From Hypericum androsaemum (Eukaryota; Streptophyta; Magnoliopsida; Malpighiales; Hypericaceae), in assembly GCA_963995505.1 (NCBI GenBank), contig OZ023182.1, forward strand, positions 16,405,619-16,469,618: a stretch of DNA of 64,000 nt, written 5' to 3'. The notes below the pieces were generated by a model that worked only from the letters and a program-made list of their open reading frames with translations, was not told the origin of the DNA and did no database searches. A program made the position numbers and the translations under genes. Positions 3,029 to 36,239 of the stretch are shown one piece after another. Position 1 is the first letter of the stretch; each line of letters starts with the position of its first letter.

Positions 3029-3603
3029 ATTTCCCCTGGATCTTGTAAACCAAACTGTAAGAGAAACGATGAACCACCCAAAACCGCAATTGAAATTCAA
3101 CCATATGCAACTCTTTAACTACGAAAAAGGCTACAAATTTCACACCCAAAATATTAAAAAGAGTTCTTGTTGATAAAATTTCCTCATACCCATGAATCAT
3201 TTTTTAAAAAGAAAAAAAGGTCAGAAAGGAGCTCAACTCACTAAAGCTACTTAGTCCACTGTCCACCCATGAACTGAGACTTGAGGCTAACGGCTTCAAA
3301 AATAAGAGATGGAAAACAATCCAACCCCTAATTTTTTCTAATCCAATTAGAGAAGAAAGAAACATAAAGGGAGTGGGGAAGAGGAATCTAGGGTTTGAGA
3401 AGGAAACAATCCGCCATCCCCGATCCCAATCTACACTCATTTTTGGTGACTTTTGCCATCCCCGATCCCGACCCGTCATCCTGCCTGCCCGATCTGGCTG
3501 TACCCCATGAAGAGAAGCGTCGTTACCCCTAGAAGCGTTAGTCACGCCACGTTTAGGGCTTGGCCAGAGGCATCTCGGAAAGGTCGCGAAACCCGAATCA
3601 CAG

Positions 3604-3769
3604 AAGAAGAAGAAGAAGTCGCTGAGACATGTGGCGTCCGGAGCTGAAGATGTGTTGGGGAAGAAGGAGGAGGAGGTGGTTGGGAGCTTTGAGGAGTTGG
3701 GTTTGACCGAGGAGGTTATGGGTGCTGTTAGATAGTTGGGGATTGAGGTTGAAGTTCGAATTGAAGGAA
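3604..3769 (+). pseudogene. Captured DEAD-box helicase-like fragment
   Basis: In the frame through 3619 the plus strand reads KKKSLRHVASG..., then VVGSFEELGLTEEVMGAVR, a TAG stop, and LGIEVEV. The pattern F-x2-L-x-L-x4-A-x4-G resembles the Q-motif region that precedes the helicase core in plant DEAD-box helicases of the RH39 type. Only about 50 codons are present, with no Walker A or DEAD motif, and a stop interrupts them. The fragment lies inside element A, so it is interpreted as transduplicated host sequence. The family assignment rests on this short motif alone. Confidence 0.45.
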
Positions 3770-7566: not shown

Positions 7567-9712
7567 TCAGCTTCGAGCATGAACACCTACCAAGTCCAAG
7601 CAATGCTCGAACTTAGTACCAGAAAGCGGCTTCGTCAACATGTCTGCAGGGTTGTCCTTTGTACCCACCTTGCTCACAATAATGTCACCTTGAGCAACAT
7701 GCTCCCGAATGAAGTGGTACCTCACATTAATGTGCTTTGTCCTCTCATGATGCATAGCATCCCTCGTGAGATGGATAGCACTTTGACTATCACAGTACAC
7801 TGTACCGACCTGCAGCTTCTCACAGATTTCACTGAAGAAATCTTTCAACCAGATAGCCTCCTTCACACCTTCAGTTATAGCCATGTACTCTGCCTCAGTG
7901 GTAGACAACGCCACTGTGGTCTGTAGACAAGCTCTCCAACTGATAGCACATCCTCCAAGAGTGAAGACATATCCAGACAAGGACCTGAACTTATCAATGT
8001 CTCTAGCATAATCTGAATCCACGAAACCAACAACTCCATCACTGGTGCGTCCAAACTGTAGACACACGCCCTTGGTACCCTTCAAGTACCTCATAATCCA
8101 CTCCACTGCTCTCCAATGACCTTCTCCAGGATTTGCCATAAACCTGCTAACAACACTCACAGCATAGGCCAAATTCGGACGTGTGCAAACCATAGCATAC
8201 ATCAGAGAACCAACAGCATTGGAGTATGGAACACCAGACATATAATCGGCCTCAACAGCTGACTTTTCAATATAACTCTCCTGACTCAGAAATAATTTCC
8301 TTGCTCCTCTATCTCTGGCAATCTCCATGCCAAGAATCTTCTTAGCAGGACCCAAATCTTTCATCTCAAACTCGCTACTCAACAGAGCTTTGAGCTTCCT
8401 CACCTCTCCTTTGTCACTGGCAGCAATTAACATGTCATCCACATACAGGAGCAAATACACTTGGGAACCATCACATAGCCTTTTCAGGTAAACACAACTA
8501 TCATACTTTGCTCCTCTCATAACCATGAGAAATCATAAAGGAATCAAACTTTTTATACCACTGCCTCAGAGACTGTTTAAGGCCATACATGGACTTCTTC
8601 AACAAGCACACATGGTCTTCTTTGCCTTCAACATGAAAACTCTCAGGCTGTGCCATATAAATTTGCTCCTCAAGCTCTCCATTCAAGAAAGCTGTATTCA
8701 CATCAAGCTGTTCAAGCTCCAAATCCTGCATAGCAACAATACCAAGAAGAGAACGAATCGAGGTATGCTTCACAACTGGTGAAAATACCTCATTAAAGTC
8801 CACACCAGGAATCTGACTATATCCTCTAGCCACTAGCCGAGCCTTGTATTTAGGCTCTTCAACTCCAGGTATACCATCTTTCTTCTTGAATACCCACTTG
8901 CAGCTGACAACCTTCTTATCCTTAGGCAGCTTAGTAATCTCCCAAGTCTTGTTCTTGTGAAGAGATTCTATCTCTTCCTCCATCGCAACCAACCATCTAG
9001 AAGAGTCTTTCGACTTCACAGCATTTGAGTAACTAGACGGTTCTTCACAGCTATCAACTTCTTCTGCCACATTCAGGGCAAAAGCAACAATATCAGCCTC
9101 ACCCAACTTCTGTGGAGGCCTGATAATTCTTCTGGGCCTGTCTCTAGCAATAGAATACGCTGGCTCCCTCTCAACTGTGCCAACATTCTCAGCTTCATCG
9201 GACAACCCACCATGAGTAGGACCATGGCAATCAACATCACGGAAGGAACTCGCTTTTGGATCAGCATCAAACTCTACCTGCACTTTTGACTTTTGCAAGT
9301 CCACACTTGGAGTACTCGGAACACCAGGTGAAGAAACATCCTCCCTCTTACTCAGCATGGCTGTCTCTTTGAAAATAACATTCCTACTCAACAAGACCTT
9401 AGACAGATCGGGACACCACAACTTGTATCCCTTCACTCCAGAAATATAGCCAAGGAAGATACACTTCACAGATCTTGGCTCTAACTTGCCATTATTCACA
9501 TAAGCAGAGGCAGGACACCCAAATATCTTCAAAACAACATAATTAGGAGGATTTTTAGACCATAATTCTTCAAGTACCTTACCATCAAGTGATGCATGAG
9601 GTGAACGATTGACAAGGTGACAGGCAGTGGAAGCAACTTCAGCCCAAAATGACTTAGACAAACCAGCATTTGACAGCATACAACGAACTTTCTCTAACAA
9701 AGTTCTGTTCAT
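7567..9712 (-). pseudogene. Copia reverse transcriptase / RNase H
   Basis: The frame 8501-9712 begins just after the stop at 9731-9733 with the integrase C-terminal part (MNRTLLEKVR, next to the position of the catalytic Glu). It continues into RT (WVFKKK, ARLVARGYSQ, AFLNGELEE, KKSMYGLKQ). A one-base shift near 8510-8526 moves to the frame 7567-8526, which holds YVDDM, the RT thumb and RNase H ([36 protein letters not shown]). About 40 residues expected between SYIEK and [14 protein letters not shown] are missing, an in-frame internal deletion. It ends close to the polypurine tract as expected. Confidence 0.9.
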
Positions 9713-9730
9713 TCTTTCAGCGACTCTATT

Positions 9731-10519
9731 CTATTGAGGTGTACCAGGGATTGTCTTATGCCTGACAATACCCTCATTCTTACAGAACTCATCAAACCAA
9801 CTAGAGCAAAACTCTAATCCATTGTCTGTGCGGAGATGCTTGACATCTCTCCCAGTCTGCTTTTCAATCATAGTCTTCCACTGCTTGAAAGTGACAAAGA
9901 CATGATCCTTGCTCTTCAAGAAGAATGCACACACCTTCCTCGAATAATCATCAATAATAGTCAGCATATACTTGGAACCATTCTTTGTTGCAACTTGAGA
10001 CGGTCCCCAAAGATCAGAATGAACATAGTCAAGTTTTCCCTTTATAGTGTGGACACCTTTCAGAAAACTGACTTTCTTCTGCTTGCCAAACACACAGTGC
10101 TCACAAAATTCTAGCTTCCCAATACCCTGTCCACTTAATAATCCTCTCCTATTTAGCTCGGTCATGCCTTTCTCACTCATGTGACCAAGTCGCATATGCC
10201 ACAATGAGGTATTCTCAGAATCTGTCAATGAGCCAGATGCAGTAGCAGCAGTCTCTTTAACTGTAGAACCCTGCAAAATGTACAGATTTTCAACCTCTTT
10301 CTTGGCCTTCATATGCACTAATGAGTTCTTACTCACACGAAAAACTCCACCTTCTCCGGTATACTTGTACCCTAATGTATCAAGAGTACTCAGCGAAATC
10401 AAGTTCCGCTTCAAATCAGGGATATGTCTCACATTCGTCAAGGTTCGAATGACACAATCATGCATTTTGATCTTCACTGTGCCAATACCAACAACCTTGC
10501 AGACAAAATTATTTTCCAT
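9731..10519 (-). pseudogene. Copia GAG-pre-integrase and integrase core
   Basis: The frame carries the GAG-pre-integrase HHCC zinc finger (HMRLGHMS ... CEHCVFGK) and the integrase core with its first Asp (HSDLWGPS) and second Asp (RTDNGLEF). It ends at a TAG (9731-9733) that replaces a Gln just before the NRVAERMN motif containing the catalytic Glu. The frame is the same as that of the upstream gag and the downstream RT segment, so this is a single nonsense change rather than a real gene end. Confidence 0.9.
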
Positions 10520-10555
10520 GAGAACATTACCCTCCGCACGTTCATATGTTGAAAA

Positions 10556-11492
10556 TCAGTCCCGGATGGGACACATATGAAACGTACAAGCAGAATCAAG
10601 GACCCAAGCAGCATCAATTTTAGACTTCCCATCAATCACATACAAAAGGTCTCCATCAGATTCTTCTTTCTGAGTGGTGGTGGCAACACTAGGACTGCCG
10701 CTATCAGAACTTTCTCCTTTCGGAGCACTGGACTTTTCGCCCTTCTTCTTGTTCTTCAACTCCGGACAGAACCATTTAATATGCCCAACCTTATGATAAT
10801 TGAAACAAGTCTTATCCTTGTGCCTTGACCTTGATTTGCTTCTGCTCTTCTTCTTCGAACCAGACTTAGCATTCCTCTCCTCAGACCTCCCTCTCACGAC
10901 CAAACCAGTCCCTTGGCTATTTTCAGAGGAACTCACAGTGTGCTTATCAATTCTCTCTTTCTCCAAGAGCGAATCATGAACATCATCCCAACTCAGAGTA
11001 TCATGGCTGAACAACAGAGTATCTCTGAATTGCTGATAAGAAGCAGGCAAGGAGCACAATAACAATAAAGCAAGATCTTCATCGTCATATTTCACATTCA
11101 GAGTTCTAAGATCAGCCACTATATCCTTAAATTCATTAAGGTGGTCGTGAGCAGACTTATCTTCTTGCATCCGGATAGAAAACAGTCGTTGCTTCAAGCA
11201 CAGTTTGTTGGTCAAACTCTTGGGCATGCACAACTTTTCAAGCTTTGCCCATAATGAGGAAGCTATTGTCTCCTTCAACACGTCCCGCAAAATATCATCT
11301 GACAGATGCAACTGGATCTGACTCACAGCCTTACGGTTCTTTGACGCCTTCATCGTAGCATCCCAACTCGAAGGCATCGACTTTTCATCAAGTAGAGTCT
11401 CATCGAGCTCTAAATGTGTCAGAATAGCGCACATCTTGACCTGCCACAGAAAAATTAGTTTTTCTCGTCAACTGAGGAATCTCGTACTTCAT
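10556..11492 (-). pseudogene. Copia gag and protease start
   Basis: A UBN2-type gag (LKQRLFSIRMQEDKSAHDHL...) is followed by a zinc knuckle CFNYHKVGHIKWFC in which the second Cys is replaced by Tyr. The protease motif LDSACTFHMCP follows. A TGA at 10556-10558 sits where Trp is usual. The likely original start is the ATG at 11490-11492 (MKYEIPQL...). A 2-nt loss near 11450 shifts that start out of frame with the rest, so the visible frame starts at an internal Met (11434). Confidence 0.85.
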
Positions 11493-17049: not shown

Positions 17050-18124
17050 GCTTGTAGGCGAATGACAGCATGTGTAGAGTGGTACAAGTGGCTGTTCATT
17101 AGTCCAATCAAATATGTATGGTGAGTTGGGAGGTTTATATGATCTATATGGTTGTAGTTGACTTGGAGATGGTGTGTGTAGTGGCTTGGTTAGATGTAGG
17201 GGTTTGGAACTTTGTTTGTTACTTTTTCAAAGATCGCCAATACCAGTTTTCACAAATTCATTAAAGAACTCAGTCTCAAGATCCTATAATCCATGATTCC
17301 CAAACTTATCTCTACTTCTTAACAACTTGCTATCATTAGGATCTTCAAATTGTCAGGTTCAATCAACGCTCGCTTACTAACACAACTGTAGTAGTTAACT
17401 GACTCATTGTAAGCCACCTTGTTCAACCTATCATACTTAGACTTTTCATTGAACACCTTATGTGCGTCACTTGCTTCCCCATCCTTACTCAATGATCCAG
17501 CACACTCCAAAGGTAAGTCAGCCTCGAGTAGTTCATCCTCAAACTCTTCCAACTCATGTTTAGTATTATCAACATCATTGTCCATCTTAAGTAGCTCCTC
17601 TTTCGACACAAGTAGTCCAAATCTGTTGAAATACAAGTAGATCCAAGTGGAGATGTTACCTGGCCAGCCTCTAACTCGAAGGATCTCGCTTGTTCTTCAT
17701 TAGATCTAGCTTGTGATAGCTTGTCAAGACCTTGGATCCTTTCATTTGTTGTTCGGATACTTGCAGCGATGTGTTCCATGGATTCCTTCATGTCATCCAG
17801 GGACTTGTTCATCTTCTGGACAAAGTCAACGAAGAGAGCCACAACCTCTTCGCTCGCCTCTTCGTCATCCATTTCCATAGCCAACTCATCGTTCTTCATT
17901 TTTTTTTCCTTTTCTTTTTCAGGTCTCCGAGTCCGAGGAAGAATACACGTCCAAGGTATCGAAGGCTCTGATACCAATTGATGTCGGTGTCCAGGAAGTC
18001 TTAGTTTTGGCGAAGAAAAGGCTCGAAGATCCTAACAATGGCGGTTTTGGTTTGGTTACCGGATAGAGAAAATTAGAGAGAGAGAGAGAGGATGGCAGTT
18101 TCGGTTTCGGTTTCGGTTTGGTTT
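17042..18124 (-). repeat. Internal tandem duplication in element H, copy 1
   Basis: The segment repeats at 18125 onward with an offset of 1083 bp and only a handful of differences. It contains part of an LTR (17979 to about 18080), a primer site (17964-17976) and the leader ORF 17489-17977. The junction carries short TTTCGG repeats (about 18100-18115). Confidence 0.9.
17489..17977 (-). CDS. Leader ORF in element H, duplicated copy
   Basis: The frame begins at the primer site. From MKNDELAMEMDDEEA it is acidic, followed by a heptad-like helix (VQKMNKSLDDMKESMEHIAA...). The same frame is present at 18572-19060 with few changes. It might be a divergent gag N-terminus; no zinc knuckle or capsid motif follows, so its function is unknown. 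Confidence 0.3.
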   Translation of the reverse strand: MVSEPSIPWTCILPRTRRPEKEKEKKMKNDELAMEMDDEEASEEVVALFVDFVQKMNKSLDDMKESMEHIAASIRTTNERIQGLDKLSQARSNEEQARSFELEAGQVTSPLGSTCISTDLDYLCRKRSYLRWTMMLIILNMSWKSLRMNYSRLTYLWSVLDH

Positions 18125-18571: not shown

Positions 18572-19060
18572 TCAACGATCCAGCACACTCCAAAGGTAAG
18601 TCAGCCTCGAGTAGTTCATCCTCAAACTCTCCCAACTCATGTTTAGTATTATCAACATCATTGTCCATCTTAAGGAGCTCCTCTTTCGACACAAGTAGTC
18701 CAAATCTGTTGAAATACAAGTAGATCCAAGTGGAGATGTTACCTGGCCAGCCTCTAACTCAAAGGATCTCGCTTGTTCTTCATTAGATCTAGCTTGTGAT
18801 AGCTTGTCAAGACCTTGGATCCTTTCATTTGTTGTTCGGATACTTGCAGCGATGTGTTCCATGGATTCCTTCATGTCATCCAGGGACTTGTTCATCTTCT
18901 GGACAAAGTCAACGAAGAGAGCCACAACCTCTTCGCTCGCCTCTTCTTCATCCATTTCCATAGCCAACTCATCGTTCTTCATTTTTTTTTCCTTTTCTTT
19001 TTCAGGTCTCCAAGTCCGAGGAAGAATACACGTCCAAGGTATCGAAGGCTCTGATACCAA
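18572..19060 (-). CDS. Leader ORF in element H, LTR-proximal copy
   Basis: Second copy of the frame at 17489-17977, immediately downstream of the true 5' LTR and primer site. It encodes the same acidic, coiled-coil-like segment. Unidentified; possibly a short gag remnant. Confidence 0.3.
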   Translation of the reverse strand: MVSEPSIPWTCILPRTWRPEKEKEKKMKNDELAMEMDEEEASEEVVALFVDFVQKMNKSLDDMKESMEHIAASIRTTNERIQGLDKLSQARSNEEQARSFELEAGQVTSPLGSTCISTDLDYLCRKRSSLRWTMMLIILNMSWESLRMNYSRLTYLWSVLDR

Positions 19061-19061
19061 T

Positions 19062-19472
19062 TGATGTCGGTGTCCAGGAAGTCTTAGTTTTGGCGAAGAA
19101 AAGGCTCGAAGATCCTAACAATGGCGGTTTCGGTTTGGTTACCGGATAGAGAAAATAAGAGAGAGAAGAGAGAGGGGTACGTGATAACAGAAATCTGTTC
19201 AAATATTCATTCATCATGATGTTTGTTTCCTTCATCTCCCACATTTATACTTCTAGTGCCTTTGGGCTTAGTTCGTAATAAAAAGCAAAAGGAAAGCCTA
19301 ACATAGTTCTTGGGCCACAACTTAGAAACAAAGGTAGTTGCCAAAGGGTAAAGCCCATTAAGCCAGAAACAGATGCTAGCTACGGACGACAGGCAACCTG
19401 CAACGAACGATAGGCGACAACTCCTAATTCCACGCAAACGACAAGCAAGAGACTCAAATATCCCATGCAACA
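19062..19472 (-). repeat. 5' LTR of element H
   Basis: 411 bp, followed on the minus strand by the initiator-Met-type primer site at 19047-19059 and bounded outside by the ATTTA duplication. Confidence 0.9.
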
Positions 19473-26369: not shown

Positions 26370-27588
26370 GGAAATTTTTTACATGGAAAATATTCGCAGG
26401 CAGCAGAAGCCTATTATCTAAATAATTACTAACTAAACTGCTGCGACACTACTTCACATATATCTTATTGGCTTGTGTTGACGTATAACATTGACTTTGA
26501 ACCTCTTAATTTCTTCTGTAACGAAGCGACCAAGAAACCTCTCGCATCTTGTCTAGATTCATAAACTTCGTTTGCGATTTGTTGAGGTTTGGACTTATTC
26601 AAGTATTTAAGTCATGAAAAGAGTAACAACTTCCGTCTTTAGGCAAACCAAAGCCTCCTCAAACATTTTTTTTATAAATAAAAGTATATTATTCTTCAAA
26701 AAATACCAAAGAAATTTACATCCAGATAATTATAACTCATATAGAACCGGATAAATATCTATCGACAGAGTACCTACCAGATTAATACTATCTAACTCTC
26801 TTAATTAAGCCTCCTCTAATATAGGAAAAAAATCTCTTCTATTCGTTTCCAGAGGTTGTAATTTCTGGACAGTAATCCTAAATTTTCTATATTTTTTACT
26901 TCAATTAATATTTATTCTTGTTTAGATCTGTGTAGATGGCTAATCTACATGGAATTAATGAAATAGAGTTGGTATTTCGTAATTATTTTATAACCTCTTT
27001 TACCAACTAAATAAAAAATATGCTCTTTTATTTCCGGGTCATGACTATTCAATCACTTGAATATTCTATAGACAAAAAAAAAGACTATTTTCTTTACTTG
27101 CCGTTAACTGCAATCCGGCAGCTGGTTTCCCGGTAGATTCCGTTGCCCCACCAATACCAACTTGCAAAGCACCCACCAAAAGCACGTGCTTTTTATGATA
27201 TCGATGGACAAGCTGCACTTCTGCTTCATAAATAAAGTGGAGTGCTGACAAAAAAATATTAAAAATAAAGTAGATAATAAGACATACAAATAAAATTAGT
27301 AATATAATAAAATACGCTAGATAGCCTAAATAAATTAGATTCGCGTGTGTTACTTATTGTCAATAGGTAAATTATTTAAAAGTACGAAATAGTGATATGT
27401 TAAAATACGAAAACAACAATCTTTAAGAAAATAAAACAAAGTGGTGGGGGTCATTGATGGGTCACCAAATGTCCGTTCAACTAGCAACTTGCCAAATATG
27501 TCAATTTCAGTACACGCAAGTGCATGAATATGGCTGGCTCTTAGTGATTATTACAGAACAAAATTAGCCACCATCATGGATGACGATG
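26370..27588. other. AT-rich intergenic region
   Basis: No supported gene. Short frames near 27066-27289 lack domains. No RNA gene recognised. Confidence 0.5.
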
Positions 27589-28775
27589 TGTCACGACCAA
27601 GAAGTGACAAATATCTGAGGTTTAAAATATCTTGCTAGGCATCAGACTTTATTAAAAGCTAAAAACGTACTCAATAAATAGAAAACGAACAATTGTCATC
27701 AAATTCAAATTCACGCAGTCGGAAAAAAACATCCGCCTTTATTTTTTTTTTTGCAAAGAAAATAGTGATGAAGCATGCATGCAAGCCGAACCCTCTACTC
27801 CCGATCCCGGACCTCAGCGGAACCATCTGAAACACACACGACTAATGTGAGTTGATTAACTCAGTAAGTGAAACTAAAACGAATATAATTCACAACGAGA
27901 TCAATACGCGAACATAAATACACTGAATACTCTGTGAAGCAACAAGGGAGCAAAAAAGGATCCCCTATCCGACTAACATACAAAGACTCCGGAGCCTAAC
28001 ATATTCATGACGGGATTCTCGGAGGCCCAGAAAGTACCCCTCCGTTCTCGCGTTGCGGGGCCAAAGGACGGAAGGGTATCCCTACGAGCCCAGATAATTT
28101 CTGCACTCCCTATCCATTTGATCACACGCACCTAGGGTTACTCGGTTGCCCCTTTGAAGCGCTGCGCACGAACTATAGGGCCCAAAAGGTACAAAAATAA
28201 TCCCGCATGACGGAACATAACATAAAAACTATATCCACATTGAAACTTATACTCACATCCGAACAGAATTGGTTTCGTAAACAAACAAAAAAACAGAATC
28301 AGATCCATAAATGAAAACATAATCAGAATATCAGAATAAGTCAGAAACTTAAATTGAGCCATGTGTGTTCAGAATCATAAAACCCTCGATTTACGATTTC
28401 TACTTACCTAACGTAGCTCCTAGATCCTTAAACCTCCAATGATCCGTCTGAAGCCCCGTAGGTTCGTCCTCTTCACCCTTCTCGTGCGGTGATTCTCGGA
28501 TGATTTCGTCCCCTCCTAGCACCTCCTCCCGGGTCAGATCTCGCTCCTCGCCTTTACAGAGAGAAGAGATTTGTGGTTGTTATCTCTGTGGTAGAATGGA
28601 CGGCCTAAGGGCCTATTTAACATAGTTTTCGGGGCTACAAACCCTAATCTGCCCTAGTTACCCTAACACAGTTAAGGTTATGGGAAATTACCTTTTGCCC
28701 CTCAAATTTTGTTAGGACATGCCAATTGCTCCTTTAAACTTAGAAAATTATCACTTTAGTTTCTCAATTCTTACA
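27589..28775 (-). repeat. Chromovirus 3' LTR
   Basis: 1187 bp. It is longer than its partner by a segment near 28010-28070 that the other LTR lost between GACGG repeats. Confidence 0.95.
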
Positions 28776-30855
28776 TTCTTTCCCCCTTAAAATGAAGTTT
28801 GTCCTCAAACTTACTTGTGAACTTACTTGTGCATTCGAAGAGGTAAGGGTACTTCTCCTTCATTTCCGAGCTCAACTCCCAGGTGGCTTCCCTCTCTGTG
28901 TGATTACTCCATTGCACCTTGACATATTCAATAGTCCTCCGGCGAAGCTGTTGGAGTTTAGCATCAACAATTCTCAGAGGTACCTCCTCATAGCTTACAT
29001 CCGGACGAACCTCTGTCGGAATATCTTGTACTACATGTCCCTCCCTTGGGATGTATTTTCGTAGCATCGGCACGTGGAATACATCATGTACTCCAACTAA
29101 GCTCGGAGGCAAGGCCAACCGGTAAGCTAACTTCCCTATCCGTTGGATCACGTCAAATGGTCCAATATATCGTGGACTCAGTTTTCCCTTGACTCCAAAC
29201 CTTCAAATTCCTTTGGTAGGTGATACCTTCAAGAATACGTGATCCCCGATTTCAAATTCTATTTCCCTCCGATGCTGGTCTGCAAATTTTTTCTGTCGGT
29301 CCTGAGTTGCTTGGATTCGACTTCGTATTATTGGTACTTTTTCAGTCAGCTCTCTGAACATATCCGGGCCAAGAATTTCCTTCTCTCCTATCTCGTTCCA
29401 ACTGATGGGTGACCGACACTTCCTGCCGTACAGCACCTCATATGGAGCCATTCATATACTTGCCTGGAAGCTGTTATTATAGGCGAATTCCACTAATGGC
29501 AGATGTCCCTCCCAGTTCCCCCCGAAATCTAACACACAAGCTCTTAGCAAATCTTCTAGGGTCTGTATGGTCCGTTCAGATTATCCATCTGTCTGCGGAT
29601 GGAATGCTGTGCTGAACTGTAATTTTGTCCCCAGTGCCTTCTGTATACTGCTCCAAAATTTGGACAAAAATCTGGTATCTCTATGTAGCCTCACTATCTC
29701 TCTTATGTACAGTTCTGCCATTTGCTCAATAGACATTCCTATCTTATATGCTAAGAAGTGGGCTGACTTGGTGAGGCGGTCTACTACTACGCATACCGCA
29801 TCCTTACCTTGAAGGTTCCCCGGGAGTCCCATCACAAAATCTATTGTAATCTTCTCCCACTTCCACTCAGAAATCTCTAATGGTTGTAGGGGGCCGGCTA
29901 GTCGTTGGTGCTCTGCCTTAACCAATTGACATACCATGCAACTGGCTACAAAGTCGGCTATCTCTTTCTTCATGCCGGACCACCAAAAATTGAGTTTAAG
30001 ATCTTGATACATCTTGGTCCCTCCCGGATGTCCTGCATAGCGAGCAGTATGGGCCTCTTCCAATACTTTATTCTTTAGTTCCTTGGCTGCTGGCACACAT
30101 ATTCTATTCTGGTAGTAGAGATAGTTATCGGCTCCAATATGGAAGCCTGCTAGTTCCCCTCGTTCAACTTGCTGTCTGAGGGCCATGAGGGTTGCGTCCT
30201 TGCGTTGTCCCTCACCTAGTTGAGTTTGCAATATAGGCTCTAGTTCCATGCTTGCCACTAGACTGGCTGAGTAATCAGGGTCTTCCAGCCCCAGACTTCT
30301 CAACTCTCGTATCCGTCCTTCTTGTGTTGTAAGCCCGTTCCCAACTTGGTCTTTCCTGCTAAGAGCATCCGCTACAACATTAGCCTTTCCTGGGTGGTAG
30401 TGTATCACAATATCATAATCTTTAATCAATTCTAGCCACCTTCGTTGTCTCATATTCAGTTCCTTCTGTGTGAAGATGTATTTGAGGCTTTTGTGATCCG
30501 TGTACATCTCGCAGCGAACCCCATATAGATAATGTCTCTATATCTTCAGTGCGTGAACCACTGCTGCTAGCTCCAGGTCATGAGTAGGGTAGTTCTTTTC
30601 GTATGGCTTAAGTTGTCTTGATGCATAAGCGATCACTTTATCCTCTTACATAAGTACACATCCCAACCCATTTCTTGATGCATCACTGTAGATAACATAA
30701 TCCTTCCCTTCGCTGGGTTGCGCCTGTATGGGAGCTGATAGCATTCTCTTCTTTAGTTCCCGGAAGCTTTGTTCACACTCCTCACTCCATGTAAACTTTA
30801 CCCCCTTTTGAGTTAACCGGGTTAATGGCATGGCTATCCTAGAGAACCCTTCCAC
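28771..30855 (-). pseudogene. Chromovirus RNase H, integrase and chromodomain
   Basis: A single frame broken by stops: RNase H from 30855 (YSDASRNGLGCVLM, stop at 30646-30648, then the continuation to [12 protein letters not shown] at 30507). Integrase follows with its HHCC finger ([15 protein letters not shown] ... [11 protein letters not shown]) and core ([22 protein letters not shown]). Further stops lie at 29581, near 29452 and at 29203. The C-terminal part ([20 protein letters not shown]) is a chromodomain, which marks the chromovirus clade, probably Tekay/Del-like. Most stops are CGA to TGA, CAA to TAA or TGG to TAG changes, the signature of methyl-cytosine decay. Confidence 0.9.
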
Positions 30856-30937
30856 AAATCATCGATAATAGCCTGCCAAACCCAAGAAACTATGCACATC
30901 TGACACGGTACTTGGAGGCTGCCATCCTACAACTGTC

Positions 30938-31745
30938 TCAATCTTGCTGGAGTTTACAGACACTCCTTCCTTGGATATAACGTTCAAGGAAGGCAACTTT
31001 CTCGAGCCAAAATTCACACTTCTTCAACTTGGCGTATATCTGTTCCTTCCGTAGTATTTGTAGGACCATCCTTAAGTGCTCTTCATGTTGCTTCTTACTT
31101 GGTGAATACACCAGGATGTCATCAATAAATACCACCACACATTTATCCAAGTACGGTCGGAAGGTCCGATTCATCAAGTCCATGAATATCGCCAGAGCAT
31201 TTGTCAATCCAAAGGGCATCACCAGAAACTCGTAATGTCCATATCTAGTACGAAAGGCTGTCAAATGCACATCTCCATCCCTAATCTTTAGTTGGTGATA
31301 GCCCGAGCACAGGTCTATTTTGGAGAACACTTGCGCTCCCTTCAACTGATCAAACAGGTCTTCAATTCTGGGTAGGGGGTATTTATTCTTAATGGTGAGC
31401 TTATTTAACTCACGATAATCCATACATATCCTCATGGAGCCATCTTTCTTCTTCACGAATAACACCGGTGCTCCCCATGGTGAGACACTTGGTCTAATGA
31501 ACTCCTTTTTGAGCAAGTCCACCAGCTGTATTTTTAGCTCTTTTAGTTCTGCTGGAGCCATGCGATAAGGCGCCTTGGATACCGGTCTTGCTTCGGGAAT
31601 CAGTTCAATCTGGAACTCCACTTCGTGATCTGGTGGTACCCCTTGTATCTCCTCTGGGAATACATCTGAGAAGTCTCTAACAACTAGAATATGGTCTAAT
31701 AAAGTCTCGCTCTGCGTATCCATGGTAGTAGCTAGGTAAGCTACG
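30938..31745 (-). pseudogene. Chromovirus reverse transcriptase
   Basis: The frame shows the linker after protease ([15 protein letters not shown]), the [18 protein letters not shown] motif, [36 protein letters not shown], the [16 protein letters not shown] fingers and the active site [11 protein letters not shown] (a normal FIDD). A one-base loss near 30980 shifts the frame after EKVAFLE; the other frame continues to 30861, where a TGA interrupts. Upstream of 31745 the minus strand has no protease or gag, which is the breakpoint of the inverted block. Confidence 0.9.
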
Positions 31746-32038
31746 GCACCAGTAAGTAAGTGATTAGTGTAGCCTGAGAAAATAGTGAAAGATTGTGATT
31801 TCGTGATATTCTGTGATTGTGATTATTTCGTGGTGTTCTGTAATCGTGTTTTTCATGTTTACGATACGGTAATTATGTGCTTATCTACTTATATGCTCAG
31901 AATCTTGGTAATTTCGTGGCTGATCTTGAGATTCTGATTTCGATAGCTCTGAGATTGAAATTTTAAGATGCTTATGGCTTCGAGATTTAAGAAATGAATT
32001 AGTTATGAATGTAAATTAATGTCGTAGTAACAACCTAT
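31746..32038 (+). other. T-rich leader upstream of plus-strand gag, intron-like
   Basis: A T- and G-rich non-coding stretch between the RT start and the gag N-terminus. It begins near donor-like sequences (CTAG|GTAAGC near 31736, CCA|GTAAGTAAG near 31758) and ends with an acceptor-like CCTATCAG at 32038. It could be a leader intron or promoter for the plus-strand gag. This is inference from motifs only. Confidence 0.3.
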
Positions 32039-33128
32039 CAGGGCAGGAATTCATCACACCGCAAACCAGAAGTCGAGCATCCAGGAGACAAGATTCAAGA
32101 CAGGGTGCAAATACTGGGCTGCCTCCATTTGCCGCCAGGAATGCGCAAGTTACCAATGCACGAGCTGCTACCGCCACTGAGGTGCCCTCTGGCTCAAATG
32201 CGCATGCTGACCCAAGTGCGTATGCCGAGTCAGATGCGCAATCTGCCACCAATGTGCATGTCAATGGCCCGGCTGCTCCTGGTCTGCACCCAGCAGGGTT
32301 AAACACAGAAGGTGCACTGTTGCAAATTCTGAACCTATTAGTTCAGCAATGCCAGCCGGCAGCTGCAGTCGCCGTGCCACAGCCTGTACCTGTACCTGTA
32401 CCCCAACCCACCATAGGGGGTTACCGGAAATTCCTGAGAGTTAAACCACCCTCTTTCGATGGTTCAGAAGACCCAATACAGGTAGAAGATTGGGTAATTG
32501 AGATGGAGAAGGCCTTTGATATCGCTCACACCCAGCCCATAGAGAAAGTGAAGTATGCTACTTATGCGCTGAAGGGCGATGCTCGTAGGTGGTGGGAGAC
32601 CTAGGACAGGATCCGTCGGGACAAGAGGGCGGATGAGGCAGCAGCGGAAGCAGAAGTGTATGGCCGGGAAGAATTCCTGAGAGATTTCAGGGGTCACTTC
32701 ATTTTGTCGGCCAAAAAGAGAGAGAAGGCGCGAGAATTTGATCAGTTGGTGCAGGGGAACATGACTGTGTCGGAATACGACCGAGAGTTTTCTAGATTTT
32801 CAATCTTCAAGTCAATGGCTACTCTTGATGAAGAGGCTCAAGCTAGGAAATTCGAGGATGGGCTCGCAGATGATATCAAGAAGTTGGTGGTATCCTTCCT
32901 CTTGCCCTCCTATTTGGAGGTACTCCACAGAGCGCTGGTAATCGAACAGACGCAAAACCTATGCCAAAAGAGGGCAGAGAAGGAGATTGCAAAGAGGAAA
33001 GGGGGACCCGATATAGGGAATCAGTATACTGAATCAACCAAAAGACCCTACCACCCACCCCCTGCTAGAAACATGAACGCGTGGTGTGGGAGATACAATC
33101 GTGCGGGACACAATCAGGATCAGTGCAG

Positions 33129-33201
33129 GTGAATAGCATGTTATTTCAAGCAACCAGAATATTTGAACTTTAATTTAGGAGTGTAACATGTATTCTTATA
33201 G
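33129..33201 (+). other. Intron 1 in plus-strand gag
   Basis: 73 bp, CAGTGCAG|GTGAATAG ... TTCTTATAG|GTGG, AT-rich, with in-frame stops. Its removal changes the frame by one, exactly as needed to join the two knuckle-bearing frames. It yields the spacing C-R-x-x-T-G-A-C-F-x-C-G, which is the usual junction between the two zinc-knuckle motifs in plant chromovirus gags. Confidence 0.8.
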
Positions 33202-33401
33202 GTGGATTACTGGAGCATGCTTTCAGTGTGGGAAGATGGGACACCGATTGGCAAAATGTCTAGAGATGCATGCACGGGGCCCAACGGTGACCAACTCTAA
33301 TGGCCGCACTCCTGCAGGAGGGAACCCACCACCGAGAGCTACGGCACGGGTGTACGCACTCAACCAGATAGAAGCTGGGCAACGGGGAGATGTGGTAACA
33401 G

Positions 33402-33470
33402 GTAAATACTTGCTTGGTAAATTATTTGTGTCGCTAAGAGAATACCATTAAGTTTAGGACCATATCGCAG
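33402..33470 (+). other. Intron 2 in plus-strand protease leader
   Basis: 69 bp, GTAACAG|GTAAATAC ... ATATCGCAG|GAAAAT. It contains stop codons. Removal joins DVVTG to KFLVAGFLANSIFDSGA, reproducing the conserved VVTG-x-FL-...-FDSGA start of gypsy proteases without gap. Confidence 0.8.
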
Positions 33471-33907
33471 GAAAATTTTTAGTAGCGGGCTTCCTTGCAA
33501 ATTCAATATTTGATTCTGGAGCAATCCATTCGTTCATTGCTGAACATTTTGTGAGGAGACATAGATTGTCAAGGAATAGACGTAGGGAGGAGATGGCAGT
33601 TATAACTCTACTGGGAAAGACCATCATGATAGACCAGAGTTGTGACTGTGAAATCCTTATAGGCGACTAGCAATTCATGGGACACTTCCAAATTATGGGG
33701 ATGATGGGCTTCGATGTCATCATGGGAATGGACTGGCTAGCAGGACAGCACGCATGTATTGATTGCATGTGTAAGTCTGTTATTTTTCGGCCACCAGGAA
33801 AGAAAGAATTTAAGTATGGGGGCGACAGTGTCAAAACCCCTGTGTCAATAATTTCTGCGGTGGAAGCAAAGAGACTGGTACAAAAATATACTACTGTAGA
33901 ACAGTAA

Positions 33908-34344
33908 TCACGATATGCCCATGAAAATCACATAAGTCCCTCTTCCTAAGGTCACTCAACCCCTTAATACAGGACTGGTAACGTAAAATTTCAAAGCCAA
34001 CTCAGAATTCCCACGAAAATCACTTAAAATTTTTTGAACAAAACTTCAAATGGTTGTAACTTTCAAACGGCTGCGAATTAGCCCCCGAAAGTCGATCGCT
34101 CTGGCTATAACTTAAGTTTTTAGTGGTTTTGGCCACAAAAGTCACGAAATTTTGACACCAAAACTATGGTTTCAAAATGATTTGCACCGCCTCTTTACCA
34201 CTAGTTATTTTTAGACAAAATTTTAGAAAAATAAGAGATATGTGCAACTTTTCAAGCAGCAATATGCAATGCCTATTCTGACACATTTCGATGCCATGCA
34301 TGACACGATAAATCTGTGTAGCTTTCAAAAAAAAATTTAAAATT
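33908..34344 (-). other. Chromovirus leader between PBS and inverted block
   Basis: Non-coding sequence adjoining the primer site (34345-34357). It has no gag on the minus strand, where gag would normally start. Confidence 0.6.
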
Positions 34345-34357
34345 GGCTCTGATACCA
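34345..34357 (-). other. Chromovirus primer binding site
   Basis: TGGTATCAGAGCC on the minus strand, complementary to the 3' end of initiator tRNA-Met, 5 nt from the LTR end. Confidence 0.9.
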
Positions 34358-34362
34358 TAATA

Positions 34363-35495
34363 TGTCACGACCAGAAAATAGAAGTGACAAATGCCCGAGA
34401 TTTAAAATACCCCGCTAGGCATCAGACTTTATTAAAAGCTAAAAACGTACTCAATAAATAGAAAACGAACAATTATCATCAAATCCAAATTCACGCAGTC
34501 GGAAAAAAACATCCGCCTTTATTTTTTTTTTGCAAAGAAAATAGTGATGAAGCATGCATGCAAGCCGAACCCTCTACTCCCGATCCCGGACCTCAGCGGA
34601 ACCATCTGAAACATACACGACTAATGTGAGTTGATTAACTCGGTAAGTGGAACCAAAACGAATATAATTCACAACGAGATCAATATGCGAACATAAATAC
34701 ACTGAATACTCTGTGAAGCAACAAGGGAGCAAAAAGGGATCCCCTATCCAACTAACATACAAAGACTCCGGAGCCTAACATATTCATGACGGAAGGGTAT
34801 TCCTACGAGTCCATATAATTTCTGCACTCCCTATCCATTTGATCACACGCACCTAGGGTTACCCGGTTGCCCCTTTGAAGCGATGCGCACGAACTATAGG
34901 GCCCAAAAGGTACAGAAATAATTTCGCATGACTGAACATAACATAAACACCATATCCACATTGAAACTTATACTCACATCCGAACAGAATCGGTTTCGTA
35001 AACAAACAAAAAAATAGAATCAGATCAATAAACGAAAACAGAATCAGAATATCAGAATAAGTCAGAAACCTAAATTGAGCCATGTGTGTTCAGAATCCTA
35101 AAACCCTCGATTTACGATTTCCACTTACCTGACGTAGCTCCTAGATCCTTAAACCTCCAACGATCCGTCCGAAGCCCCGTAGGTTCGTCCTCTTCACCCT
35201 TCTCGTGCTATGATTCTCGGATGATTTCGTCCCCTCCTAGCACCTCCTCCCGGGTCAGATCTCGCTCCTCGCCTTTATAGAGAGAAGAAATTCGTGGCTA
35301 TTATTTCTGTGGTAGAATGGACGACCTAAGGGCCTATTTAACATAGTTTTCGGAGCTAAAAACTATAATCCACCCTAGTTACCTTAACACAGCTAAGGTT
35401 GTGAAAAATTACCTTTTGCCCCCCAATTTTGTTAAGACATGCCAATTGCTCCTTTAAATTTAGAAAATTATCACTTTAGTTTTTCAATTCTTACA
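34363..35495 (-). repeat. Chromovirus 5' LTR
   Basis: 1133 bp, partner of 27589-28775. It differs by scattered, mostly transition changes and by loss of about 54-57 bp between two GACGG repeats (near 34789). Confidence 0.95.
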
Positions 35496-36239
35496 CAATG
35501 CATCATATATTGTATTGTTTTTCTCCACAGCACGCCATAACATTCCTGGTCGACTATGGATAATATATAAAAGTCCGGCTCGCGAAATTGATATTATAAC
35601 AAATATAACTTCTTCTTTTTTGCGGGGAACAAATATAACTAATTTCATCGTCTGACATCATGGTTTGAAATCATATTAACGAGTTATTATGTGTGTCTCT
35701 TTGGTGTCATGTCTATGTATTTTTGTCTCATTTCTTGTAACTTTGTTCCTTAATGAAAAACTTATCCTTAGCAAAAAGTTAGCTTCATACCACTTGGACC
35801 GATGATTAACCAACTGTTTTAATGAAATATGTAGTTTGATTTTTTTCATCGTCATAAGATCATATATATATAAGAGTTATAAATTTATTATCTAATTTAA
35901 CTATTGATTAGAAATCTAACTTGATCATTATATAATTAATTACCAAATAACTATTGATTATGAATCTAACTTGATCACCAAATAACTAAGACTAAGACGT
36001 CTATATGAATATCACTTCTATTCCTAACATGTTTTTTACGGAACAGCGCATAGTAGCCACACTGAACTAACATGTTTGAGCGTTCACGCAAGTGACTAAA
36101 CGTTAATAAGATCTAATAAACGATGAGGGTGAAAAATACATCCGTTGTAATAAATAATAATAGTGAATGAGAGTATTGAACTACGAGGAAAAATGAAGTT
36201 CGGCCTTAATCGAGTCTATCTACTTGTTTAAGATTCAAA
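35496..36239. other. AT-rich intergenic region
   Basis: No gene or clear repeat boundary recognised. Confidence 0.5.

Follow-up and report, generated by a model that had tools for sequence, protein, structure and literature searches.

The window, the whole stretch of 64,000 nucleotides of Hypericum androsaemum DNA analyzed here, comes from an assembly of 385 Mb in 29 contigs and contains a Ty3/gypsy LTR retrotransposon that spans positions 27589-35495 on the minus strand. LTR alignment placed the 3' LTR at 27589-28775 (minus strand; ends TG...CA) and the 5' LTR at 34363-35495 (minus strand), with 94.5% identity between the two (1065 of 1127 aligned bases; K2P 0.058). The element is bordered by a 5-bp target site duplication, whose left copy (CGATG, 27584-27588) differs by one base from its right partner (CAATG, 35496-35500). 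Direct reading of the sequence located, both on the minus strand, the primer binding site TGGTATCAGAGCC at 34345-34357, which we take to be the complement of initiator tRNA-Met, and a polypurine tract adjoining the 3' LTR at 28776-28789. An untranslated leader in its original orientation (33885-34344, minus strand) is collinear with the leader of copies found elsewhere in the assembly.

The pol domains also read on the minus strand. Pfam identified the reverse transcriptase (RT) at 30941-31741 (RVT_1, E 1.5e-34), RNase H together with the integrase zinc-binding domain at 29584-30537 (RT_RNaseH and Integrase_H2C2), and, in the segment 28774-29202 that also holds a chromodomain-like tail, the C-terminal SH3 domain of integrase (SH3_Tf2-1). 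A further integrase fragment at 29206-29451 (minus strand) is an open frame without a Pfam match, assigned by position. In a short piece of the tail, Chromo scored 19.6 bits (E 8.8e-4), under the Pfam cut-off of 25.1, and it was not reported at E 0.001 for a longer piece of the same tail. Chromo came just under this cut-off in a copy with gag in sense, L017 (23 bits, E 7.5e-5), and SH3_Tf2-1 was the sole Pfam match in a piece of L027.

The remaining coding part, a block made of the leader end, gag and protease (31752-33884), reads on the plus strand, opposite to pol. Its first gag exon (32053-33128) contains the Retrotrans_gag domain (PF03732) and is followed by a 73-bp GT-AG intron (33129-33201) that lies between two zinc knuckles. 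The second exon (33202-33401) carries the second knuckle and a spacer, and a 69-bp GT-AG intron (33402-33470) directly precedes the third exon (33471-33884), which encodes an aspartic protease with a DSGA motif (RVP_2, PF08284). The knuckles were identified by eye because Pfam gave nothing for the knuckle piece (33203-33400); the N-terminal piece of gag was likewise without a Pfam match. The division described in the earlier note is thus confirmed by direct reading and by Pfam: LTR ends, primer site, polypurine tract, RT, RNase H and integrase belong to the minus strand, whereas gag and protease are encoded on the plus strand.

RT and RNase H precede integrase, an order that is collinear in 20 sense copies, and gag and an aspartic protease are present, which places the element in Ty3/gypsy (Metaviridae). 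The family resembles plant Ty3/gypsy chromoviruses in its Gag, protease, RT, RNase H and integrase with an SH3 domain and chromodomain-like tail, and the window copy also shares their TG...CA LTRs and 5-bp target duplication. From motif resemblance we suspect a Tekay/Del-like clade. The window RT was up to 74% identical to proteins among 120 listed of 7993 matches, mostly named plant RT without a clade, and a protein search with gag returned 19 unnamed matches at no more than 45% identity.

The window copy is dead, because its gag start is lost and stops interrupt gag, protease and pol. ATC stands at the gag start site (32053), where ATG was found in 19 of the 19 sense copies checked; in-frame TAG codons occur in gag (32602-32604) and in protease (33668-33670), and pol is broken into several open pieces. 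Divergence from the copy L021 amounts to 0.127, 0.121 and 0.152 at the three codon positions and to 0.137 and 0.072 in the two introns, and this weak codon-position bias fits a pair of old copies free of constraint.

Two further features lie elsewhere in the window. On the minus strand, positions 7567-11467 contain open frames that by eye resemble Ty1/copia (gag with a zinc knuckle, integrase, RT and RNase H). Near-identical 180-aa open frames stand in tandem at 17489-18031 and 18572-19114, about 1.1 kb apart, which suggests a local duplication.

Orientation of gag-protease across the family and origin of the inverted block

We searched the assembly with pol and scored 40 of 767 candidates, which gave 39 places besides the window; 20 of these were taken as 9.9-kb stretches and the other 19 were examined at the protease/RT boundary. 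Protease adjoins RT in sense in all 39, and in 33 the aligned parts are one base apart. A separate search with gag, in which 40 of 159 candidates were scored, added 11 copies outside the pol list: nine in sense, of which one has a boundary deletion, and two (L057 and L058) truncated before RT. Two of the 50 other copies are therefore too truncated to judge, and gag-protease and pol share a strand in 48 of the 48 that can be tested. A search of the whole assembly for the inverted pol/gag junction, allowing up to three mismatches, returned the window itself (exact) and one unrelated place. The latter, C5:8318789, was considered as a second inverted copy and rejected, its resemblance to the element being limited to pieces of 25-31 bp.

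These results bear on the reading preferred in the earlier note, a mobile chromovirus family with ambisense coding in which gag-protease would be made from an antisense transcript. The window does offer a block opposite to pol with GT-AG introns in the block's own sense, and the earlier note took these introns to favor such expression. They lend it no support, because copies with gag in sense have the same introns. With not one opposite orientation among the testable copies, a searched junction unique to the window, and a window gag that has lost its start codon and acquired stops, we regard an ambisense family as having next to no chance of being right. The independent inverted copies that the earlier note proposed to look for did not appear in either search. 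It had also set against its own reading a family with gag in sense and no introns; the sense orientation was found in every testable copy, whereas the second part does not hold, since the sense copies have introns.

Comparison with sense copies corrects the limits of the block from the 31746-33907 given previously to 31752-33884, a length of 2.13 kb with an uncertainty of about 2 bases either way. The limit near 33907 was wrong because the protease frame continues by chance for about 23 bases beyond the real join. The junction comparison used 11 copies, and the alignment of the block 14 of the 20 long stretches. The closest sister found, L048 (C16:4970500-4979500), has gag-protease in sense, with the two ancestral junctions intact; it is 93.1% and 94.6% identical to the window over the gag block and 95.0% over the adjoining leader. 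Relative to this sister, the window leader abuts the protease end, and the block start is fused to the RT linker. Each new join, read by eye against L048, misses about 2 bp and has an ambiguous overlap of 1-2 bp. Inverted similarity of one breakpoint region to the other is weak, 27 bp at 70% (E 0.29) being the best match.

The block begins exactly at a GTAAGTAAGTG motif in the leader (window 31752-31762), a good splice donor. This position of the block start may be a coincidence; at this site 10 of 11 sense copies read ATAAG.

On these comparisons, the window block is a single local inversion of one decayed element and not ambisense coding. The element would have inserted with leader, gag, protease, RT, RNase H and integrase in this order on the minus strand. 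Later, the DNA would have broken both in the leader and at the protease/RT boundary, and rejoining would have flipped the 2.13-kb piece between the breaks, with about 2 bp lost per end; the state of the joins points to end-joining repair as the probable mechanism. The inversion probably followed insertion, given that no second inverted copy was found. This was the first of two alternatives raised in the earlier note, and it proves the better one, given that all testable copies are in sense and that the one junction searched is unique. An inversion before or during insertion, for instance by template switching in reverse transcription, would have delivered an element already inverted. The LTRs and the target duplication fit both timings and the small losses at the joins are compatible with either, but the pol/gag junction occurs nowhere else in the assembly and the sister is in sense, so that we consider this earlier timing unlikely.

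The inverted arrangement is read from the assembled sequence, in which the block might have been flipped by mistake. However, the breakpoints have no strong inverted repeat that could mislead an assembler, the small base losses at the joins resemble real repair, and the identity of the block to the sister (93.1-94.6%) is similar to that of leader, LTR and pol pieces (87-96%). An assembly error is thus very improbable. Altogether, we put at roughly 95% the probability that the element inserted in normal order and that its 2.13-kb block was inverted later, in a family whose relatives carry two introns in gag-protease in sense.

Two introns in gag-protease

The introns noticed in the earlier note are real features of the family, with window limits at 33129-33201 and 33402-33470 and the same sites in relatives. 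Both occur at identical positions, in sense with pol, in 20 of the 20 copies taken as 9.9-kb stretches, which include four whose identity to the window in this region is about 75%. Both introns are GT-AG in 18 of these copies, the exceptions being one GC donor and one AA acceptor, and lengths range from 68 to 79 bp for intron 1 and from 69 to 74 bp for intron 2. In the window, their GC content (0.29 and 0.35, against 0.43-0.56 in the exons) makes them AT-rich, in agreement with the plant-intron criteria quoted in the available part of PMC3735527.

Exon by exon, we counted 19 of the 20 copies, L013 being excluded for a large insertion in gag. The phase of exon length fits in 15 of 19 copies for exon 1 and in 16 of 19 for exon 2. 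Intron 1 opens with an in-frame stop in 18 of the 19, and intron 2 contains one in all of them. We further compared 12 close with four distant copies. Divergence between these subfamilies is 0.180, 0.175 and 0.387 at codon positions 1, 2 and 3; intron 1 (0.385) is similar to third positions, intron 2 (0.282) is lower, and both exceed positions 1 and 2. By this measure the exons are constrained, and the introns less so or not at all.

These intervals might instead be mere insertions or decay in gag-protease that are never spliced. They are predicted from DNA, the exons of most copies are also disrupted by some stops or frame changes, with all three exons open in just 2 of 19, and divergence is lower in intron 2 than at third codon positions. 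However, sites and splice signals are conserved across subfamilies that share about 75% identity, length changes freely inside the intervals with constraint outside them, the gag ATG is kept in every sense copy counted, and one copy, L062, has lost both intervals precisely. We therefore hold it highly unlikely that the two introns are unspliced.

Both introns are missing from the copy L062 (C18:11698300-11707200), and the cuts coincide exactly with the predicted splice sites (near 3413 and 3618-3626 of its stretch). It retains a 5' LTR, some of the leader and a large part of pol; no second LTR was found in the stretch examined, nor an exact match to the primer-site core. The simplest reading is that it probably arose by reverse transcription of spliced RNA, and as such it is direct support for splicing, from one natural copy. 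Its leader also misses 275-278 bp, a gap that is not GT-AG and has GAAA common to both sides, and this looks like an ordinary deletion. The sister L048, whose stretch as taken lacks most of pol, has lost about 55 bp (window 33385-33439) across the boundary of exon 2 and intron 2; this deletion, which covers the exon end and a part of the intron, does not correspond to splicing. Across both intron sites, 22 copies were seen in all (the 20 long stretches, L048 and L062), and both introns are present in 20. Gaps in the gag-search alignments at C13:10751047-10752530 and C2:24991474-24993074 miss the intron limits.

The LTR pairs of 15 intron-bearing copies, measured on partial LTRs, have K2P values of 0.004-0.064. 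This range leaves out L009, whose repeat pair lies about 8.6 kb apart; four others of the 20, and L048, are without an LTR pair in the stretch. These values suggest that fairly recent rounds of transposition left the introns in place.

An additional intron in the leader, from GTAAGTAAGTG at the block start to a CAG before gag, was considered and rejected; no upstream exon is needed, because an in-frame gag ATG is present in 19 of 19 sense copies. Two observations concern the leader itself. Leader pieces corresponding to window 33981-34211 are 83-88% identical to the window in L025-L028, where gag is only 76-78% identical, and the leader may thus carry a packaging or other RNA signal. In L014, the leader and block start look partly duplicated in tandem (543-963 and 1178-1620).

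Known intron-bearing elements and a working model of splicing

Plant LTR retrotransposons are described as generally intronless, with Ogre and EVADE as notable exceptions, in the part of a 2025 review available to us (PMC12786077). In Ogre, of the Tat lineage, some of the transcripts have the intron spliced out (PMC6317226, accessible portion). A similar use of partly spliced RNA underlies our working model, and, as is characteristic of Ogre, the sequences indicate that intron removal is needed to open the polyprotein frame: stops lie within the introns, and both introns are absent from L062. In contrast to Ogre, the family has two small introns situated upstream, between the zinc knuckles and before the protease, and a chromodomain-like tail. 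The Ogre-type intron between protease and RT is absent, protease adjoining RT in 39 of 39 copies. Because the intron sites differ and the chromodomain-like tail is present, we do not file the family as Ogre.

Several Ty1/copia elements also combine spliced and unspliced RNA. In the sections available of the respective papers, BARE1 has a short intron in its gag/protease part, with spliced and unspliced RNA dividing the work (PMC3735527), spliced and unspliced RNA share tasks in EVADE (PMC12786077), and the sunflower elements Tyran and Varan produce an isoform with two spliced introns and shortened Gag RNAs (PMC7730604). In these elements splicing of an otherwise open frame leads to Gag-only or shortened products, whereas the frame of the Hypericum family is closed until splicing. 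The BARE authors were unable to amplify spliced DNA copies (PMC3735527), while a spliced genomic copy, L062, exists in this family. The predicted splicing here connects gag with protease and retains RT, which sets the family apart from CRR. We take CRR to be a rice centromeric element and a chromovirus. The transcripts of this Gypsy element are spliced so that RT is removed and two ORFs are created, as stated in an excerpt of PMC3735527.

Compared with plant chromoviruses, the family differs by its two coding introns in gag-protease, and the window copy alone differs by its inverted gag-protease; the other copies have gag-protease and pol on one strand, as is usual in the group. We found no description of a chromovirus with coding introns in gag-protease that must be spliced to reach pol; the literature covered includes little of that behind subscription, and absence of such a description is unproven. 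The accessible part of PMC3059260 makes no mention of introns or splicing. As far as the literature covered goes, the intron-bearing family is new, as a variant of known intron-bearing elements.

The unspliced frame stops at intron 1, so that in our working model Gag-Pro-Pol could be made solely from RNA that has lost both introns. Gag alone would come from unspliced RNA, ending at the intron 1 stop, and the packaged genome RNA would be mostly unspliced. We give somewhat better than even odds to a plant chromovirus lineage in which two spliceosomal introns split gag-protease and have been kept through many rounds of RNA-mediated transposition, with Gag made from unspliced RNA, Gag-Pro-Pol only from doubly spliced RNA, and packaging that strongly favors unspliced RNA, with rare escapes like L062. 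If this is true, splicing would set the ratio of Gag to Pol and mark the genome RNA.

As a rearrangement, the inversion is ordinary decay, and it cautions that ambisense coding should not be deduced from one copy alone. Of greater importance is a chromovirus-like family predicted to need splicing for Gag-Pro-Pol. An element copied through RNA is expected to lose its introns, yet 20 of 20 copies keep both sites, and L062 shows that exact removal is possible. The intron-bearing family offers a genomic means to measure the exclusion of spliced RNA from plant retroelement replication.
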